A stretch of DNA of 17,294 bases from Thermococcus sp. (GTDB lineage Archaea; Methanobacteriota_B; Thermococci; Thermococcales; Thermococcaceae), in assembly GCA_027001105.1 (NCBI GenBank), contig JALTMZ010000116.1, forward strand, positions 1 through 17,294, in the 5' to 3' direction. The notes below the pieces were generated by a model, which saw nothing but the letters and a program-made list of their open reading frames with translations, did no database searches and was not told the DNA's origin. The translations under genes were made by a program, and so were the position numbers. How positions within the stretch are numbered: position 1 is the stretch's first letter; every line of letters begins with the position of its first letter. This document shows positions 2,286-8,150 of this stretch, piece after piece.

Positions 2286-2324
2286 AAGCTTTTAAGCTTA
2301 TTCTCCAAGTTCTCATCAGGTGAT
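2286..2324 (+). promoter_or_regulatory. Promoter and ribosome-binding site for the THUMP-SPOUT gene
   Basis: TTTTAAG at 2290-2296, preceded by an A-rich BRE-like AAAGC, makes a typical Thermococcales TATA element. It predicts a start of transcription near 2316-2320. AGGTGA at 2318-2323 is the ribosome-binding site, 5 nt before the ATG at 2329. The in-frame GTG at 2320 overlaps this site and would have no leader, so the ATG is preferred. Confidence 0.5.
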
Positions 2325-2328
2325 AGCG

Positions 2329-3375
2329 ATGAAATTTTTAATAAAAACTCAGAGGGGAATGGAGGGTGTCGCTGGTAATTACATTAAGGAAGCTTTGGAA
2401 GATGCTAAGGTCTGGATTTCACCTCAAGGGTACTCTGGACTGATTTTAGTTGAAACTGACGATAAAGATGCAAAAGAGAAGATTTTAGAAATCCCGGAAG
2501 TTGAAAGGGTTATTGAGGTCTTACATGAGGTTCCTGCTAAAATTGAAGATATTTTAAGTGTCGCTGAAGATCTTGCCAAGTTTATCAATGAGGGAGAAAC
2601 ATTTGCCGTCAAGACTAAGAGGAGAGGAAAGCACGACTTCACAAGTGTCGATGTAAATGTTCAGCTGGGGGCTAAAATAAAAGAGCTCACAAATGCTGAA
2701 GTTGATTTGAGCTTCCCAGACAAAGCAATTTTAGTTGAGATAATCGGAGATAAGGCTTACATCTCAGTTGTTGGAAAAGAGGAGTGGAAGAAGTACACTC
2801 CAGAGAAGACAGATGCAAGGAAGCTTTTCAAAAAAGTCAGCATAGTCCAGATGCCGTACTGGGGTGATTACAAAGCCTGCAGAAACTTCGGTGAGAAAAT
2901 TGGTAGAGCTGCTCAGGCATTTGAGGTTAAAGAGCTAATAATAGCACCGAAAGAAAAAATTAATGGGTATGAGCTCATGGAATTTTTAAGAGGGGTGAAG
3001 ATCGGACAGGAGTCAAGGTATCAGATTCAAAGGGAAGCCTACCCTTGGAAAATCGAGAAAGTTCCCGTATATGTTTGGGATCTGTATCAGGTGATAAGAG
3101 ACAAAAGGAGGAACAAGCGTTTGCTCATAATTACAGACCCCAAAGGGCATACTCTGGCTGAGGTTAAAGATAAACTGGCGAAAGACATGTATTACGCAAA
3201 GGAAGTTGTTGTGTTCATCGGTTCGCGAGAGGGCATTCCAAGGGGACTTTTCAGATTTGCGGATTATGTTGTTGACTTGGCCCCTTACATGACATTTGCA
3301 ACAGAACATGGAATCCCTGGTGCATTAATAGCACTGTGGACAATTTATGAAGAAGAGCTTAGGAGAAGGGAATGA
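2329..3375 (+). CDS. THUMP-SPOUT tRNA methyltransferase family protein
   Basis: A 348-residue protein with an N-terminal ferredoxin-like region (MKFLIKTQRGMEGVAGNYI), a THUMP RNA-binding domain at about residues 50-160 (FAVKTKRRGKHDFTS, then VDLSFPDKAILVEIIGDKAYIS) and a C-terminal SPOUT-like domain at about 170-345. The likely knotted SAM-binding loops include IITDPKGHTL, VVVFIGSREGIPRGL and TEHGIPGALIALW. THUMP-SPOUT proteins of this group are tRNA methyltransferases or predicted ones. I recall from memory a Thermococcus enzyme (TrmTS) reported to make 2'-O-methylcytidine at position 6 of tRNA-Trp, and this could be its orthologue; I cannot confirm it here. An in-frame GTG at 2320 would add three residues, but the ATG at 2329 has the well-placed AGGTGA. 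The stop codon touches the D box of a minus-strand C/D RNA. Confidence 0.82.
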   Translation: MKFLIKTQRGMEGVAGNYIKEALEDAKVWISPQGYSGLILVETDDKDAKEKILEIPEVERVIEVLHEVPAKIEDILSVAEDLAKFINEGETFAVKTKRRGKHDFTSVDVNVQLGAKIKELTNAEVDLSFPDKAILVEIIGDKAYISVVGKEEWKKYTPEKTDARKLFKKVSIVQMPYWGDYKACRNFGEKIGRAAQAFEVKELIIAPKEKINGYELMEFLRGVKIGQESRYQIQREAYPWKIEKVPVYVWDLYQVIRDKRRNKRLLIITDPKGHTLAEVKDKLAKDMYYAKEVVVFIGSREGIPRGLFRFADYVVDLAPYMTFATEHGIPGALIALWTIYEEELRRRE

Positions 3376-3428
3376 TCAGCCCCTAAGGTCGTCATCATCT
3401 TTCAGCAATCCGCCTTTTCATCACATTT
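3374..3428 (-). ncRNA. C/D box sRNA (2'-O-methylation guide), canonical double guide
   Basis: On the minus strand all four boxes are perfect: C box GTGATGA (3424-3418), guide 1 AAAGGCGGATTG (3417-3406, 12 nt), D' CTGA (3405-3402), a 3-nt spacer, C' ATGATGA (3398-3392), guide 2 CGACCTTAGGGG (3391-3380, 12 nt) and D CTGA (3379-3376). This is the textbook archaeal layout bound by L7Ae, Nop5 and fibrillarin. By the D+5 rule the predicted methylated bases are C in CAAUCCGCCUUU and U in CCCCUAAGGUCG. I could not match either target to a specific rRNA or tRNA from memory. The C box lies 10 nt after the stop of the DUF92 gene, so processing from that transcript is likely. The ends given are approximate. 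Confidence 0.9.
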
Positions 3429-3434
3429 TAAACT

Positions 3435-4160
3435 TTACACAAGGGCTAAAAAGATTATCCCTCCAATTACCCCACCAACAATTGTCGCAATAAAATTCGT
3501 GCCATTATTATCAACAATGCCCCTGTTTTCTAAGGTTGCCCCTACAATGCTATCAATGTTGCACCCAATGAATCCCCCAAGCAGTGTTGCCAAAAGCATC
3601 TGCCATTTGTACTGGGTTATCTCTGCTGCAATGAAAGCAATCGCCAATGCACCAATGAATGCAAAGAGTTCCCCCTGAAAAGAAACGGCTCCATTAGATC
3701 CAGGCTTTGCAGGCTTTAAATTTGTGATGATCCTTGGCTTTTTACCCAGGATTTTTCCGAGCTCACTCGCCAGAGTGTCCGCATTTGCTGTGGCTATTGA
3801 GGCAAATGTAGCTGCCCACAGAAAATCCTGCTGAAAGACATGTTCAAACATCACAAATATCCCTGCTGCCAATCCGTTTCCCAGAACATTCCTCCAACTT
3901 CTTATGCCTTTCTTTCCCTCAGCAATCCCGATTTTCAGCTTATCTGAATATTTATACCTTGTAGAAAGAACACCCATAACGACGAAGACAACCAGTGCCA
4001 GAAAAGGATACATCCCCCCAAAATACAGGATGAGCATTCCAAGAAAAACAGCTGAAACACTGCCCATTTTATCCAGCGCTTTAAAGACATAAGCCGCAAA
4101 TCCAAATACAATGAGCATGATGAACTGGATCATTGAAATTCCTGTCATTTGTGCCACCAT
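3435..4160 (-). CDS. DUF92/TIGR00297 family polytopic membrane protein
   Basis: An integral membrane protein of the DUF92 family (PF01940), about 241 residues from the chosen Met. The family includes the plant phytyl-phosphate kinase VTE6, so a CTP- or prenyl-phosphate-related activity is conceivable, but the archaeal function is not established. Five to seven hydrophobic helices can be seen. The family core is clear: NADTLASELG, then PRIITNLKPAKPGSNGAVS followed by a membrane helix, and DSIVGATLENRG near the C-terminus. The frame could extend upstream to 4265, but that would overlap the Lrp gene with an unlikely hydrophilic leader. ATGs at 4160, 4148 (GGTGG five nt before it) and 4133 are all possible; the first membrane helix starts at the last of these. 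The stop lies just before a C/D RNA. Confidence 0.8.
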   Translation of the reverse strand: MVAQMTGISMIQFIMLIVFGFAAYVFKALDKMGSVSAVFLGMLILYFGGMYPFLALVVFVVMGVLSTRYKYSDKLKIGIAEGKKGIRSWRNVLGNGLAAGIFVMFEHVFQQDFLWAATFASIATANADTLASELGKILGKKPRIITNLKPAKPGSNGAVSFQGELFAFIGALAIAFIAAEITQYKWQMLLATLLGGFIGCNIDSIVGATLENRGIVDNNGTNFIATIVGGVIGGIIFLALV

Positions 4161-4251
4161 TTTAAATGTTATTTTAAAGTCAAAGAAGGATAAATAAGAA
4201 GCTTTATTACATTTTCCCTCGCTTATTGACGAAAGAGGAATAGGAAAAGAG

Positions 4252-4701
4252 CTAAAGTATCTCAAACTTAACGATCTCGGTGATAAATGTTATGTCCATT
4301 TTGTCGATCCCGTCTATTTTCTTAGATATCTCATGTATTTTCTTCTCAATATCCTTCATATCCTTAGGGGCGACCAAATGAATCACAAGGTTGTGAGAAC
4401 CAATAGCCCTTTCAATGATCTTAATGTCTGGATCATCCTTCAGCCTCTCAATTATCTCATCAACTGGGGCTGCGGGTTTGAGAGTAATGCCTAATATAAC
4501 ATAAACATACCCCAACCTGTCAAAATCTGGTATTATGGTATACTTCTTGATGACCCCCATCTTTTCAAGTTTATCCAATCTTCTGGAGATTCTCTGTCGT
4601 GTTGTTTTTAATTGTTCTGCCAATTCTTTGTATGTAAGTCTTGAATTTTTGGCCAAGAGGTTGATAAGCTGTATGTCGACCTTATCTATTTTAGCCCTCA
4701 T
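4252..4701 (-). CDS. Lrp/AsnC family transcriptional regulator
   Basis: A 149-residue regulator with an N-terminal winged helix-turn-helix (KVDIQLINLLAKNSRLTYKELAEQL, recognition helix TTRQRISRRLDKLEKMGVIKKY, about residues 7-53) and a C-terminal RAM ligand/oligomerisation domain (VYVILGITLKPAAP, then IGSHNLVIHLVAPKDMKDIEKKI). This is the standard feast/famine regulator architecture. Such proteins often sense amino acids and commonly repress their own gene (family knowledge). The frame extends to 4731, but the Met at 4701 matches family starts and has GAGGTG at 4714-4709 on the minus strand, 7 nt upstream. A TATA-like TTTTTAATAA lies near 4745-4736. The DUF92 gene follows downstream after about 90 bp; whether they share a transcript is uncertain. 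Confidence 0.92.
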   Translation of the reverse strand: MRAKIDKVDIQLINLLAKNSRLTYKELAEQLKTTRQRISRRLDKLEKMGVIKKYTIIPDFDRLGYVYVILGITLKPAAPVDEIIERLKDDPDIKIIERAIGSHNLVIHLVAPKDMKDIEKKIHEISKKIDGIDKMDITFITEIVKFEIL

Positions 4702-8087: not shown

Positions 8088-8150
8088 GGAGTCAGCGAAG
8101 CGAAGAGTCCTCATTGCCCCTGCTCGGGTGTCCTCGGCATCATCATCCAC
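8088..8150 (-). ncRNA. C/D box sRNA, near-canonical double guide
   Basis: Minus-strand elements: C box ATGATGA (8146-8140), guide 1 TGCCGAGGACAC (8139-8128, 12 nt), D' CCGA (8127-8124, one mismatch to CTGA), a 9-nt spacer, C' ATGAGGA (8114-8108, one mismatch to ATGATGA), guide 2 CTCTTCGCTTCG (8107-8096, 12 nt) and D CTGA (8095-8092). Both guides have exactly the usual length, and the degenerate internal boxes are common in archaea. Predicted methylated bases by the D+5 rule are C in GUGUCCUCGGCA and G in CGAAGCGAAGAG. I could not assign targets. The segment is visibly more GC-rich than the flanking intergenic DNA, as expected of a structural RNA in a hyperthermophile. It begins 8 nt after the DUF2666 stop. 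Ends are approximate. Confidence 0.82.

Follow-up and report, generated by a model that had tools for sequence, protein, structure and literature searches.

Archaeal C/D box sRNAs form a well-known class of guide RNAs. According to passages of Dennis et al. (PMC4644070), 262 of 489 archaeal sRNAs are predicted to be double guides whose targets lie within 100 nt of each other, and nine base pairs are required of a guide, a rule that is relaxed for some double guides. Passages of the review by Breuer et al. (PMC7994747) state that most archaeal C/D genes need no promoter of their own, and that 25% of them run into a gene's 3' end; in nearly half of these overlaps the stop codon falls within the C box. 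Here we analyzed a DNA stretch of 17,294 nt from Thermococcus sp. (contig JALTMZ010000116.1, referred to as the window) and compared a putative sRNA on its minus strand with these known RNAs. It resembles them in its four boxes, two 12-nt guides and short spacer, in having two 23S targets within 100 nt, and in the location of its gene, which lies at the end of a protein gene or overlaps that end; there is no difference in kind. We hold with high confidence that the sequence at 3376-3424 is an ordinary archaeal double-guide C/D box sRNA aimed at U2383 and C2410 of 23S rRNA (numbering of the related genome G003). Its novelty is that of one more member in a well-known class, and not of kind.

Direct reading of the minus strand bore out every element of the layout proposed in an initial annotation of this DNA, namely four exact boxes, 12-nt guides and a 3-nt spacer (Table 1). 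The terminal boxes agree with the archaeal consensus (RUGAUGA for C and CUGA for D), the internal D' and C' boxes are separated by a short k-loop of 3 nt, and fibrillarin, the methylation machinery expected beside a C/D sRNA, is encoded in the same genome (PF01269, E 7.9e-99). No secondary structure above that of shuffled sequences was found in the stretch (z 0.0). With both strands scanned, the strict four-box pattern has a single match in the window and was absent from all 2000 first-order Markov simulations, in agreement with the annotation's opinion that a random occurrence is very unlikely. The loose pattern matched the window twice, at the sRNA and within an Rfam sR45 match at 8090-8150, and it appeared once across all 2000 simulations.

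Table 1. Coordinates in the window of the sRNA gene, its elements and the neighbouring protein genes.
Feature	Position	Strand	Remark
C/D box sRNA gene, C box to D box	3376-3424	minus	Four boxes read directly
C box GUGAUGA	3418-3424	minus	RUGANGA in 78 parsed orthologues
D' guide AAAGGCGGAUUG, 12 nt	3406-3417	minus	Predicted Cm at 23S C2410 (G003 numbering; E. coli 2313)
D' box CUGA	3402-3405	minus	Direct reading and strict pattern
D'-C' spacer AAG (k-loop), 3 nt	3399-3401	minus	Length kept in 77 of 78 orthologues
C' box AUGAUGA	3392-3398	minus	Direct reading and strict pattern
D guide CGACCUUAGGGG, 12 nt	3380-3391	minus	Predicted Um at 23S U2383 (G003 numbering; E. coli 2286)
D box CUGA	3376-3379	minus	Abuts THUMP-SPOUT stop codon
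DUF92 membrane protein gene	3435-4265	minus	PF01940, E 5.1e-60
THUMP-SPOUT RNA methylase gene	2320-3375	plus	PF14419, PF02926; convergent neighbour

Rfam searches at the gathering cut-offs gave no match for the sRNA in the window or at eight related loci. Below the gathering score, the best families for the window copy are both of the C/D type: sR9 (RF01312) with 28.6 bits against a cut-off of 36, and snoPyro_CD (RF00095) with 25.2 against 45. Relaxed cut-offs, applied to the window copy and one copy from genus g2, retrieved only sub-threshold families, nearly all of them C/D (genera are labelled g1 to g6, g1 being the window's own; g2, which includes G012 and G023, we take to be Pyrococcus). 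In the comparison with archaeal C/D models that the annotation had proposed, the best matches belong to the right class and none exceeds the gathering score. Identification as sR9 or as snoPyro_CD was rejected on these scores; both families are like the sRNA in boxes and layout, whereas their guides differ. Likewise, the sR45 RNA at 8090-8150 (RF01274) is of the same class and on the same strand, with other guides.

The Thermococcaceae were searched with a pattern that fixes both guide cores, GGCGGATT, 10-30 bases, GACCTTAGG. Matches were obtained in 83 of the 94 family genomes and mark the sRNA in 78; in the other five the match is confined to the antisense strand of 23S rRNA, which was also the second match in most genomes. 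The reversed pattern, as a control, matched none of the 94. All 78 copies (77 loci and the window), comprising 54 distinct sequences, parse into four boxes, and the D guide has 12 nt in every one. The guide cores are invariant in an alignment of 23 sequences, while the spacer, the flanks and some box letters vary. This invariance in the 78 copies partly reflects how they were picked, because the search pattern itself demanded both cores. With the 23 copies as its basis, a sequence model was run on a phylum sample of 115 genomes (E 0.01 or better, stricter filters) and matched 84 of them. Within the family there were 81 strong matches (E below 1e-7), 3 weak ones and 10 genomes with none, and under the stricter filters none of the 21 genomes outside Thermococcaceae was matched. 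Since this search without fixed cores adds only three genomes to the pattern set, few copies with changed guides had been lost. These strong additions are G100, whose copy has every box and a D' guide core one base shorter, and G025 and G105, in whose copies (L204 and L205) the D', C' and D boxes remain but no C box can be made out; these two copies are probably decaying.

Judged by this distribution, with conserved guides in 78 (exact pattern) or 81 (model) of the 94 genomes, the sRNA is real and old. Boxes lost beside retained neighbours in close relatives, which the annotation had named as a sign against it, were not seen: all six same-genus relatives searched keep the four boxes, and five of them keep both neighbour genes in place as well. 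That four short boxes came together merely by chance in the gap between convergent genes is extremely improbable. Partial matches do arise near gene ends, since the boxes are brief and UGA doubles as a stop codon, but the strict motif never arose in the simulations, the 78 genomes carry the sRNA with variable flanks, and the conserved pair of 23S-complementary guides already refutes this explanation. As for genomes without the sRNA, the model found no convincing copy in G022 and G078, each assembled in one contig and 99% complete. The 13 family genomes without a convincing model match, together with the loss of the C box in two, indicate that the sRNA is dispensable or diverged in some species. 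A full-length THUMP-SPOUT orthologue was likewise not found in G022, and the sRNA is kept in G010 and G014 although they lack the THUMP-SPOUT protein.

The window's own assembly is 80% complete, in 245 contigs, and no 23S or 16S gene was found in it; the targets were therefore examined in relatives. Both guide cores are complementary to a single 34-nt stretch of 23S rRNA, and the target region is identical in six aligned 23S genes. The D guide pairs with G003 23S positions 2379-2390 (GCCCUAAGGUCG) by 11 contiguous Watson-Crick pairs and the D' guide with positions 2406-2417 (GAAUCCGCCGUA) by 8 contiguous pairs, at positions 2-9; the first base is unpaired in both duplexes. The fifth bases upstream of D and D', U2383 and C2410, are paired and align to E. 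coli 2286 and 2313, with C2410 lying 27 nt downstream of U2383. Both sites are presumably located in helices 82-84. They lie outside the hotspots listed in the portions of the literature on archaeal C/D targets that we compared. The distance between them fits double guides, since passages of PMC4644070 place the targets of the 262 predicted ones within 100 nt. The pairing in relatives confirms the bases that the annotation had chosen for methylation (C by the D' guide, U by the D guide). Its target 12-mers were right at the fifth bases and need correction at their ends: the literal strings CAAUCCGCCUUU and CCCCUAAGGUCG are absent from the 12 rRNA loci taken from six relatives, and the actual sites in 23S read GAAUCCGCCGUA and GCCCUAAGGUCG.

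We compared duplex energies among the 23S and 16S sites with a paired fifth base, using one genome for each of four genera. The D site was best in all four. The D' site came first in g2, g3 and g6; in g1 it shared the first rank with the same duplex shifted by one base. Moreover, none of 400 shuffled guide pairs gave two runs of at least 8 pairs within 100 nt. The annotation's assignment to the C/D guide RNAs is hence supported by boxes, conservation and 23S-complementary guides alike, and the sRNA very probably directs two methyl groups onto the large ribosomal RNA. Its D' guide is the weaker one. Through it, each of the 27 parsed copies outside g3 forms 8 contiguous Watson-Crick pairs with 23S, and the 51 copies of g3 form 10-13; in the window copy, 9 of the 12 guide positions are paired. 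With 8 contiguous pairs, this guide stands at the weak end of the nine-pair rule given in passages of PMC4644070. It is nevertheless improbable that it serves a tRNA instead of 23S. The tRNAs for Thr(UGU) and Lys(CUU) offer UAAUCCGC with C40 (our numbering) as the fifth base, and the seven contiguous Watson-Crick pairs plus one G.U formed in G003, the most found for the D' guide among 44 tRNAs of that genome, come close to the 8 with 23S; however, the 10-13 pairs of the g3 guide are beyond the reach of the tRNA site, and the D guide is aimed at the same 23S region. For the D guide, the same 44 tRNAs gave at most 9 pairs, with 6 Watson-Crick pairs in the whole site.

The gene neighbourhood points to the likely source of the precursor transcript, the DUF92 gene. 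In the window its stop codon (3435-3437) lies 10 nt ahead of the C box. A DUF92 gene on the same strand reaches into the C box, or stops no more than 37 nt before it, in 74 of the 78 loci. The first UGA of the C box serves as the DUF92 stop in 28 loci (8 of 8 in g2, 9 of 9 in g6 and 11 of 51 in g3); in the other 46 the stop precedes the C box by 6-37 nt. The four exceptions are one locus at a contig end, one g4 locus with the DUF92 stop 373 nt away, and two g5 loci in which no DUF92 was found. This arrangement fits the promoter-less, 3'-overlapping archaeal C/D genes described in the passages of PMC7994747. An element at or just past the DUF92 end in so many loci, with the stop codon even inside the C box, might also be a k-turn of the DUF92 mRNA 3' UTR that acts in cis, for example by binding L7Ae, and not a free guide. 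We consider this very unlikely, because conservation is strongest in the guide cores, which match 23S, and because the g4 and g5 exceptions keep the RNA away from, or without, DUF92.

On the other side, the THUMP-SPOUT stop codon (3373-3375) stands directly against the D box, and the closest matches of the encoded protein in named collections are from Thermococcus MAGs, 97% identical, with one of 89% labelled T. paralvinellae. The annotation had described the sRNA as antisense to the 3' end of this mRNA; the contact is true in the window but is not conserved. The gene is convergent to the sRNA in 65 of the 78 loci, and the gap between D box and THUMP-SPOUT is 0 in g1, 1 in g4, 1-2 nt in g6 and 4-60 nt in g3. 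In the other 13 loci, all 8 of g2 included, no THUMP-SPOUT gene was found within 1.5 kb. The contact therefore looks incidental. An antisense regulator pairing with the 3' end of the THUMP-SPOUT mRNA would agree with the abutting D box in the window and five same-genus relatives; it is made highly improbable by the spacing of 0-60 nt where the gene is present and by the loci, g2 among them, that lack it with guides unchanged.

A guide RNA of the double-guide type would, as we infer from this context, be produced and used as follows. The sRNA most likely arises as a 3' tail of the DUF92 transcript, and upon binding of L7Ae, Nop5 and fibrillarin the precursor would be trimmed to about 50-65 nt around the C/D and C'/D' motifs. 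The D guide would then pair with GCCCUAAGGUCG of 23S and the D' guide with GAAUCCGCCGUA, which lies 27 nt downstream; the 2'-OH groups of U2383 and C2410 would be methylated by fibrillarin. By holding both sites simultaneously, the particle may also aid the folding of this part of 23S domain V.

The D' guide has a second possible partner in g1. At two of the three g1 23S loci (L032 and L033), the pre-23S processing stem holds AGGCGGATTG / CAATCCGCCT, ten bases that recur in the D' guide, and its 3' arm contains CAAUCCGCCU, a 10-pair match; the guide thus forms 10 contiguous pairs with this arm against 8 with mature 23S. At the third locus (L036, genome G005) only the 5' arm is present. The 3' end of L036 has coding-like sequence in place of the last 23S bases and the 3' arm, which could be an insertion, a rearrangement or an assembly error. 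The match to the stem arm was not seen in g2, g3 and g6 (one genome each), and as these keep the guide without this arm, we take it as a coincidence. It is quite unlikely that the g1 sRNP, through its D' guide, keeps the bulge-helix-bulge processing stem open until domain V has received its methyl groups; if true, such pairing would couple modification to 23S excision and circularisation.

We further focused on the orthologue at 1100957-1101006 of G030, a genome that we take to be T. kodakarensis KOD1. It shares the guide cores, the upstream DUF92 gene and the convergent THUMP-SPOUT gene with the window copy. Its D' box is CCGA and its C' box GUGAGGA, against CUGA and AUGAUGA in the window, and unlike that of the window copy its D' guide, 13 nt long, is fully paired with 23S. 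By comparison of coordinates with the published table, as far as its passages go, C/D sites of G030 coincide with T. kodakarensis sR15, sR20, sR29, sR37, sR46, sR49 and sR61; sR34 is listed too, the identity of the orthologue with it being only probable. The one basis for this identity is the place of the orthologue between Tko-sR33 and Tko-sR35, taken from the available part of a table in PMC9014305. The orthologue is not in the circular-RNA table of PMC9014305, as far as the passages of that paper show. Eight G030 stretches were checked, seven published places and the orthologue, and four of the published ones were not parsed by the four-box pattern.

The different internal boxes bear on a structural rule. 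The k-turns of box C/D RNAs have U:U as their 3b:3n pair (passages of PMC5689011), which in our own reading is formed by the fifth base of the C box and the second base of the D box. Among the 78 copies, the facing pair of the C'/D' motif is U.U in 26, G-C in 43, G.U in 8 and U.C in 1. U.U occurs in all copies of g1, g4, g5 and g6 and in 7 of the 8 of g2, the remaining g2 copy having G-C; the 51 copies of g3 have G-C (42), G.U (8) or U.C (1). The CCGA and GUGAGGA boxes of g3 look degenerate, but with their G-C facing pair they fit each other. The facing pair of the outer C/D motif is U.U in 74 of the 78 copies, the others being A.C, A-U, C.C and G.U. Over C/D-like sites of the whole G030 genome, the fifth C' base is U in 6 of the 7 sites with D' CUGA and is G or C at all 10 sites with D' CCGA (Fisher 0.0006); this coupling is not clear in G003 (Fisher 0.18) or G007 (1.0). 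After duplicates were dropped, the test used 17 of 17 rows for G030, 25 of 27 for G003 and 36 of 38 for G007, and four G003 rows with A or G in D' were left outside it. The tendency of the two bases to change together in G030 is indicative only, as these are unverified sites and copies that share ancestry do not count as independent.

A second C/D sRNA of the window, the sR45 RNA on the minus strand at 8090-8150 (68 bits), has D' CCGA, C' AUGAGGA and a G-C facing pair, and its likely T. kodakarensis orthologue (G030, 1103573-1103621) has CUGA, GUGAUGA and U.U. The same facing-pair difference thus appears there in the opposite lineage.

The switch between U.U and G-C on both sides suggests structural selection on the internal motif, also in copies with seemingly degenerate boxes. 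The rule of snoReport 2.0, which asks for U at this position in boxes C and D (passages of PMC7994747), could miss such G-C motifs if applied to C'/D'. For the Thermococcaceae, the sRNA adds to the known set a conserved guide RNA that Rfam at its cut-offs missed in the loci tried, and it predicts two methylation sites in 23S rRNA. Moreover, its family is a clear example of facing bases of the C'/D' motif, U.U or G-C, that differ on both sides among relatives.
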